This document shows positions 25,105-27,302 of a stretch of 36,239 nt of DNA, piece by piece. The stretch comes from an uncultured Spirochaetota bacterium. Its GTDB lineage: Bacteria; Spirochaetota; UBA4802; UBA5550. The notes beneath the pieces were generated by a model. The model was not told the origin of the DNA, searched no databases, and was given only the letters and a program-made list of their open reading frames with translations. A program made the position numbers and the translations under genes. The stretch's first letter is position 1. Each line of letters begins with the position of its first letter. The stretch is taken from contig CALMRZ010000075.1 of NCBI GenBank assembly GCA_937872225.1, forward strand, positions 1 to 36,239, read 5' to 3'.

Positions 25105-25448
25105 TCATTTTTCCAAATTTGTCCCGCAGCACCGTGCAATGTTCATCTGCTTTTCAGCGTTTGTCTTGATGACCGTCTGGATGAATCGATGAAGTTGAGG
25201 ACACAGGGACAGCGGAGACGGTAGGAGATGATGGTGCCCCGCTTCTCGTTGAGGACCAGGCCGGCGTTCTTCAGCACGCTCAGGTGTTTTGACACGGTAA
25301 AGACGTCGGATCCGACCATTTAGGTCAGCTCATTGACGCACCGCTCCCGCTTGTTGAGCTCCTCCAAAATGAAAAGGCGCGTGGGATGGCCCATGGCCTT
25401 GAGTATGCTTGCCCGCTCCTCGAACTGTGGGTGAAGTTTCTGTTCCAT
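25105..25448 (-). pseudogene. Broken ArsR-family metal/redox regulator
   Basis: The ATG at 25448 follows AAGGAG and opens MEQKLHPQFEERASILKAM, GHPTRLFILEELNKRERCVN, ELT, a typical ArsR winged-helix N-terminus. A TAA at 25320-25322 then interrupts the frame, directly followed by ATG and by GSDVFTVSKHLSVLKNAGL and the RGTIISYRLRCPCVLNFID wing, which are normal ArsR sequence. At about 25184 the frame shifts: continuing in another frame gives IQTVIKTNAEKQM, the expected end. Two independent lesions indicate a pseudogene unless the assembly is wrong. A CPC pair near the C-terminus could have been the metal or thiol sensor. ArsR-like regulators of this type are known beside hgcAB-like and metal-export genes. 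Confidence 0.8.
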
Positions 25449-25462
25449 GTCTCCTTCTCCCG

Positions 25463-25786
25463 TCAGCAGCAGCCGCTGTTTTGTGCGCCTGCCGGCGCCG
25501 GGCCGTCGCCGCATCCGCAGACCGGCTCCCCGCCCGTGATCATCCCCCTGATGAGGGCCGCGGCGCATCCCACGCCGGAGCCGACATAAAGGGCGCCGAA
25601 TTCGCGGTTCAATGAGCAGGCGCCGCATTCCATGCAGCGGTCGCGGTCTGTTATTGCCCCTTTCCCGTCCTTCATTTCAAACACGGCATGGGGGCACACC
25701 TCGGCGCATCTGCCGCGCCCAGTGCCCTTGCCGGCGTCATACCGGAGGGTGGTTGCGTTTTTAAAATAGTTCACAGGAGCCCCCAT
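25463..25786 (-). CDS. HgcB-like two-cluster ferredoxin with three cluster cysteines lost
   Basis: 107 residues resembling HgcB, the ferredoxin partner of the mercury-methylation corrinoid protein HgcA. It has VCPHAVFEM, the hallmark CMECGACSLN (51-60), a lone Cys in GVGC (C74) and a terminal CC pair (106-107). The family expects CxGCGxC near residue 21 and NCP near 61. Here positions 21, 24 and 61 are Gly, Arg and Arg, each one base from a TGC codon. By the known ferredoxin fold, these three belong to the same cluster (with C27), while the other cluster (C31, C51, C54, C57) is intact. The ATG overlaps the end of an upstream remnant frame. No hgcA (no NVWCAAGK-like motif) is in the window. 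HgcB-like ferredoxins also occur without HgcA, so the original function is open. Confidence 0.65.
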   Translation of the reverse strand: MGAPVNYFKNATTLRYDAGKGTGRGRCAEVCPHAVFEMKDGKGAITDRDRCMECGACSLNREFGALYVGSGVGCAAALIRGMITGGEPVCGCGDGPAPAGAQNSGCC

Positions 25787-26123
25787 GACTTGGTTTTATG
25801 ACGGATGAGAAGAATCGCCGATGCCGCCAGGCCGGCGATGTACACCGGGAGCCAGACCTTCAGCTCCTTCTTCACGCCGGAAATGGCCCCGGCGGTCTGC
25901 CCGGGACCATTCTCCGGAAACGACCGGCACAAGACCGGACGCAGTGTTCATGATGCCGGTTTGCCGGCGGGGCCTTTCGCCAAGCATGCCTTTCACGGCC
26001 TGGGCCGCCTGTTGCCGGACAGCGGTGTCGGCTGAAAGCCCCCGTTTCTTTTCGGGGAGGTGCGCAGCAGCCGTGGTCCTGGGCACTGGCTGTTTCCTGG
26101 TCGAACATTTGCAGTGGTTTCAT
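25771..26123 (-). pseudogene. Unrecognised frameshifted remnant upstream of the ferredoxin
   Basis: Three reading frames together look like fragments of one protein. An ATG at 26123 opens MKPLQMFDQETASAQDHGCC. A middle fragment in another frame reads KKRGLSADTAVRQQAAQAVK. The final fragment ends KKELKVWLPVYIAGLAASA plus ILLIRHKTKSW, one hydrophobic segment with a basic end, and stops in TGA overlapping the ferredoxin start by 16 bases. No single frame runs through. I do not recognise the family. The vicinal cysteines and single membrane segment would suit a metal-handling membrane protein, and a shrunken hgcA or permease is possible but unsupported. Confidence 0.35.
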
Positions 26124-26149: not shown

Positions 26150-26173
26150 ATATTTGGCAAAATAGCAAAATAT
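26150..26173. promoter_or_regulatory. Candidate operator dyad of the ArsR unit
   Basis: ATATTTGGC (26150-26158), a 6-base spacer AAAATA, and GCAAAATAT (26165-26173) form an inverted repeat with one mismatch. It lies 27 bases upstream of the first ATG of the decaying minus-strand unit, in an AT-rich gap. Its form and place suit an ArsR/SmtB-family operator. Which protein binds it is inferred only. Confidence 0.4.
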
Positions 26174-27116: not shown

Positions 27117-27302
27117 ATGAAAGCAAAAGTTGATCCCACCCTGTGCACCGGCTGTGAACTATGCGTCCAGACCTGCCCGGAAGTGTTCAGGATGGAGGGC
27201 GATACCGCGGTTGCCTGCGTCGATCCGGTGCCTGCCCAGCATGAAAAATTGGCGAAAGAGGCTGCCGACGATTGCCCCGCCGAGGCGATATCCATTTCAT
27301 GA
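27117..27302 (+). CDS. Small [4Fe-4S] ferredoxin
   Basis: 61 residues of the monocluster ferredoxin type. The cluster ligands are C10, C13 and C16 in LCTGCELCVQTCPEVF and C53 in DDCPAEAI. C20 is the extra cysteine often seen before PEVF. It would carry single electrons, possibly to the hemerythrin-like or flavodiiron protein; that is inferred from neighbourhood only. Start ATG 27117 follows AGGGGG. The second half-motif of two-cluster ferredoxins is missing, as usual for this subgroup. Confidence 0.9.
   Translation: MKAKVDPTLCTGCELCVQTCPEVFRMEGDTAVACVDPVPAQHEKLAKEAADDCPAEAISIS

Follow-up and report, generated by a model that had tools for sequence, protein, structure and literature searches.

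The window (the whole stretch of 36,239 nucleotides analysed here) very probably carries a recently inactivated hgcA-hgcB-arsR operon, in which the loss of iron-sulfur ligands from HgcB would reflect early pseudogene decay and not an evolved single-cluster HgcB. Both co-operonic neighbours of hgcB, itself the least damaged gene of the three, carry disabling lesions (Table 1), omega on the window branch of hgcB is raised and indistinguishable from 1, and an intact orthologue lies at the same site in the nearest relative. The initial annotation had noted the one-sided ligand loss and offered either chance decay or a single-cluster variant as its explanation. The broken hgcA, arsR and promoter and the relaxed hgcB favour decay; the variant is unlikely, and the HgcB copies compared gave no second example of it.

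Table 1. Positions and state of the operon features in the window.
Feature	Position	Strand	State
hgcA relic	25771..26123	-	codons 1-26 in frame, +1 frameshift, ~842-bp deletion, last ~38 codons
hgcB ORF	25463..25786	-	107 codons, frame open, cluster A ligands lost at codons 21, 24 and 61
hgcB codon 21	25724..25726	-	GGC (Gly); Cys in all homologues examined
hgcB codon 24	25715..25717	-	CGC (Arg); Cys in all homologues examined
hgcB codon 61	25604..25606	-	CGC (Arg); Cys in all homologues examined
arsR relic (ArsR/SmtB metalloregulator)	25119..25448	-	in-frame TAA, frameshift, Cys79 lost
promoter/operator relic	26150..26173	-	palindrome ATATTTGGC-N6-GCCAAATAT, one mismatch

HgcB proteins have two CxxCxxCxxxC motifs for two [4Fe-4S] clusters. 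In the published model of HgcAB, cluster A is bound by Cys20, Cys23, Cys26 and Cys60 and cluster B by Cys50, Cys53, Cys56 and Cys30, and cluster B is placed near the cobalt (PMC7305189). Mutation of HgcB Cys73 abolished activity, and mutation of both C-terminal cysteines lowered it by 95% (PMC7305189). The window protein departs from the two-motif pattern at Gly21, Arg24 and Arg61. The three codons are as first reported, and the earlier assignment of all three losses to one cluster agrees with the published ligand model (PMC7305189). Three of the eight ligand cysteines are replaced, all of them in cluster A, which has lost three of its four ligands; the other five are intact, and the cluster B set is complete. 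Cysteines are kept at positions 27, 31, 51, 54, 57, 74, 90, 92, 106 and 107, all encoded by TGC. These include the hallmarks that had been described as retained, namely the strictly conserved Cys past motif 2 (Cys74, corresponding to Cys73 in ND132) and the C-terminal pair (Cys106 and Cys107). Eighteen other family-invariant residues, among them Cys74 and every ligand of cluster B, are also kept. The protein scores 101.8 bits with the NCBIfam HgcB equivalog model and passes its cut-off of 99, and its scores with the Pfam ferredoxin domain models fall under the gathering thresholds.

In relatives, hgcB starts with an ATG that overlaps the hgcA stop codon, and alignment to these relatives gives a GTG at 25774 as the window counterpart. 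The true start is probably this GTG, which would place the gene at 25463-25774. The first residues of the listed frame (MGAP) are probably an out-of-frame end of hgcA lying outside hgcB, because the relatives align with a start at the GTG.

HgcA and HgcB form one complex, and each is insoluble if produced alone (PMC11588087). Both HgcB clusters have been proposed as the source of two electrons for Co(I) (PMC11588087). In the window, DNA alignment shows that hgcA has been reduced to 353 bp, compared with 1194 bp in the hgcA of the nearest relative (G004), by one inserted base and the deletion. The deletion, with its junction near 25886, occurred between short TCCGG repeats. It removed the corrinoid-binding domain, whose cap helix bears NVWCAAGK, together with the greater part of the membrane domain, so the window hgcB adjoins no hgcA with a cap helix; NVWCAAGK is found in every intact hgcA copy compared. 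When the intact HgcA encoded on contig C31 of the same assembly was used as a tblastn query, it matched the window in three different frames (residues 1-26 at 26123-26046, residues 23-87 at 26056-25862, and the C-terminal end, to residue 397, at 25947-25774). Because its HgcA is deleted, mercury methylation cannot be expected from the window locus alone.

The arsR gene has its TAA at codon 43 (25320-25322) and a one-base frameshift near 25182. With the C31 ArsR as query, the match is 74% across codons 1-89 and then shifts to another frame. Cys79, which is conserved in the genus, is Arg in the window. In five intact operons of the genus the promoter takes the form TTGACN, 17-18 bp, TATATT, and the -10 box sits within a ATATTTGGC-TATATT-GCCAAATAT-type palindrome. 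The window -10 box reads TATTTT instead of TATATT, and TTGAC was not found 17-18 bp upstream of it. Several genomes of the genus have this palindrome, spanning the -10 box, upstream of hgcA (26150-26173 in the window; L035:8645-8668; L037:8969-8992), and it is perhaps an operator for the operon-encoded ArsR.

Conserved gene order places these lesions at a site shared with the nearest relative. In G004 (L034), an intact hgcA-hgcB-arsR operon occupies the genomic site of the window operon. Genes for a hemerythrin (78% identical), a Usp and an FprA-like protein are shared on one side, and those for a histidine kinase, a methyl-accepting protein (82%) and a glycosyltransferase (91%) on the other. 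Since the site is shared with an intact operon, the window operon was probably whole in the common ancestor with G004. Long frames adjoining the operon on the same contig are open. The window contig carries the sole pnp of the assembly and matches its composition, and thus belongs to it. Proteins of the same family and order are identical to ones encoded in named Spirochaetota genomes (for example L021 and L072, HGW-Spirochaetae-5), which places the window in the phylum Spirochaetota. A gene for a small single-cluster ferredoxin (Fer4_13) is located at 27117-27302, after the hemerythrin gene that adjoins the dead operon.

Comparison of ligand positions indicates how unusual the window HgcB is. 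All 30 homologues (the second copy of the assembly and copies from related genomes) have Cys at all eight positions, so the changes in the window are true losses. Among 80 further loci, drawn from named genomes across many phyla and overlapping the 30 homologues in a few identical proteins (L072, L082, L089), 79 keep the eight ligands and one lacks a single ligand. In total, 109 of 110 other HgcB places keep all eight and one lacks one, in two samples that both favour intact copies. The one exception, and the sole other ligand loss, is the HgcB of a Cloacimonadota draft genome (L092:510-779), in which Phe replaces the third motif-1 Cys. When 393 genomes of the phylum were scanned with a DNA pattern encoding CMECGAC and then a codon 61 with a first base other than T, the window gave the only match. 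A single-cluster HgcB was therefore found to recur neither in the 110 places nor, by the position-61 pattern, in the 393 genomes. The alignment proposed in the initial annotation thus gives Cys at 21, 24 and 61 in the relatives and a triple loss in the window only; such cysteines in close relatives, which it had set as a point against its own claim, are present for this lineage in the syntenic G004 copy and the C31 copy, both with all eight ligands. One TAA is reported inside the matched HgcB frame of another genome (G048, L014). Titles, abstracts and term counts of the papers searched yielded no case of an hgcB pseudogene, hgcAB loss or a double copy.

Relaxed selection on hgcB was seen with a two-ratio codon model written for the purpose, with four topologies for this gene. 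As the dN/dS check suggested earlier had envisaged, omega was raised on the window branch (0.476 compared with 0.082 for the background; P 0.015) and did not differ from 1 (P 0.54), and a control branch (G004) showed no rise. Across the four topologies, omega ranged from 0.45 to 0.50 (P 0.003-0.015; P > 0.4 against 1). With the three Cys codons masked, omega was still 0.33-0.39 (P 0.013-0.056 against background, P > 0.27 against 1), so the remainder of hgcB appears to be relaxed as well. In the HgcB protein tree, the window branch is 0.61 long, compared with 0.19-0.26 for the other copies of the group. Unlike hgcB, arsR has an omega on the window branch (0.125) that is not elevated, despite the broken gene; the break in arsR is thus young compared with the branch. 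With decay this recent, the statistical signal in hgcB is small and the open frame of hgcB is no proof of function.

The same assembly has a second, complete hgcA-hgcB-arsR operon on contig C31, with NVWCAAGK and all eight HgcB ligands. Its proteins exceed the respective model cut-offs (HgcA 386.9 bits against 275, HgcB 119.9 against 99, ArsR/SmtB 83.9 against 55). Two HgcB copies occur only in this assembly (G000) among 35 genomes with a match. Contig C31 has a GC content of 0.496, compared with ~0.55, and its tetranucleotide correlation of 0.91 is under that of most contigs of the assembly. It also carries genes for an ArsP-type permease, an FmdE-like protein, a Crp-type regulator and an integrase-core protein; the operon lies beside the integrase-core gene and a gene for a truncated molybdopterin oxidoreductase. 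In the genus, hgcAB-arsR often lies amid metal-related genes, including those for ArsP-type permeases and ACR3-, ArsC- and CcdA-like proteins (L141, L035, L036). The C31 operon as a recent duplicate of the window copy was ruled out by dS values of ~1.2 for hgcB and ~2.5 for arsR, and these values indicate that the C31 copy is old or transferred. Its placement differs by tree: HgcA is sister to G004, and hgcB and arsR fall outside with weak support. If the organism methylates mercury, this ability would rest on the C31 operon.

Taken with the intact operon of G004, the lesions suggest a course of decay. The hgcA gene would have been destroyed by the ~842-bp deletion and the frameshift, and arsR by the stop codon and its frameshift, with degradation of the promoter. 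With its hgcA partner gone, hgcB would be without selection, and missense changes would pile up. Three of these would so far have removed cluster A ligands, and the hgcB frame would still be open only because the decay is young.

A functional single-cluster HgcB, acting in trans with the C31 HgcA or serving as a Hg(II)-binding protein or one-electron carrier through cluster B, Cys74 and the terminal Cys pair, is improbable in our judgement. Its attraction is that those very features are kept, that the losses are confined to cluster A, and that the retained cluster is the one near the cobalt in the published model (PMC7305189). Given three ligand losses, the probability that all fall in one cluster is 0.14. 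If instead three of the 21 family-invariant sites are hit, counting gives 0.006 and a neutral simulation that keeps the frame open gives 0.007. This value of ~0.7%, from a simple neutral model, remains the best argument for a single-cluster protein, but it was computed after the pattern had been seen and does not outweigh the deleted partner, the broken regulator, the degraded promoter and the relaxation of hgcB, which extends to the rest of the gene. The ATG start and the overlap-coupled translation with hgcA are also lost, the C31 operon has a complete hgcB of its own, and neither the 110 HgcB places nor the 393 phylum genomes offered a second example. Errors of sequencing or assembly in an operon that is really intact are less probable still. 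The assembly is a draft of 95 contigs with 1.83% contamination, but an error would have to account for a deletion, a stop codon, two frameshifts, promoter changes and three missense changes within a single 1-kb operon, on a contig that has open long frames next to the operon, resembles the genome in composition and holds the single pnp of the assembly.

Whether the decayed operon is the only one of its organism is a matter of consequence and does not affect the pseudogene verdict, and confidence in the two overlaps. If C31 were a co-binned contig of a close species, the organism would be a former methylator; we regard this as unlikely, though considerably less so than a functional single-cluster protein. 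The deviating GC content and tetranucleotide correlation of C31 would fit such an origin, as would the restriction of double HgcB copies to this assembly and the lack of a second integrase-type gene copy linking C31 to other contigs. However, transfer is common for low-GC metal and arsenic islands beside a transposase-like gene, and further contigs in this assembly (C5, C60) deviate as much. C31 may be such a transferred metal island, with co-binning the less likely explanation.

Early decay of the operon would mean that a mercury-methylation operon is being lost at a conserved site, with an intact copy elsewhere in the assembly. If C31 came from another organism, the genome would represent a recent loss of the trait. 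The dead hgcB passes a curated HgcB cut-off, and surveys based on counts of hgcB matches would include it among the methylation genes. The case also shows how the state of neighbouring genes can account for a striking loss pattern in a single gene. Were the single-cluster reading true, HgcB would have outlived a dead HgcA, with one-electron delivery or Hg(II) shuttling in trans.

Compared with the HgcB family (NCBIfam NF040864), the window protein is alike in score, cluster B, the Cys73 equivalent, the C-terminal Cys pair and its place between hgcA and arsR; it differs in the loss of three of four cluster A ligands, the deletion of hgcA and the change of the start from ATG to GTG. The G004 and C31 (G000:C31, L002/L141) operons share gene order and the palindromic promoter/operator with the window, and their HgcB copies are 65-70% identical to the window HgcB; the G004 operon lies at the corresponding genomic position as well. 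In both of these operons the three genes and the promoter are undamaged, whereas in the window they are broken or degraded, with the hgcB frame still open. The window operon resembles ordinary bacterial pseudogene operons in its frameshifts, nonsense codon, deletion at TCCGG repeats and raised omega, and differs from them only in the identity of its genes.
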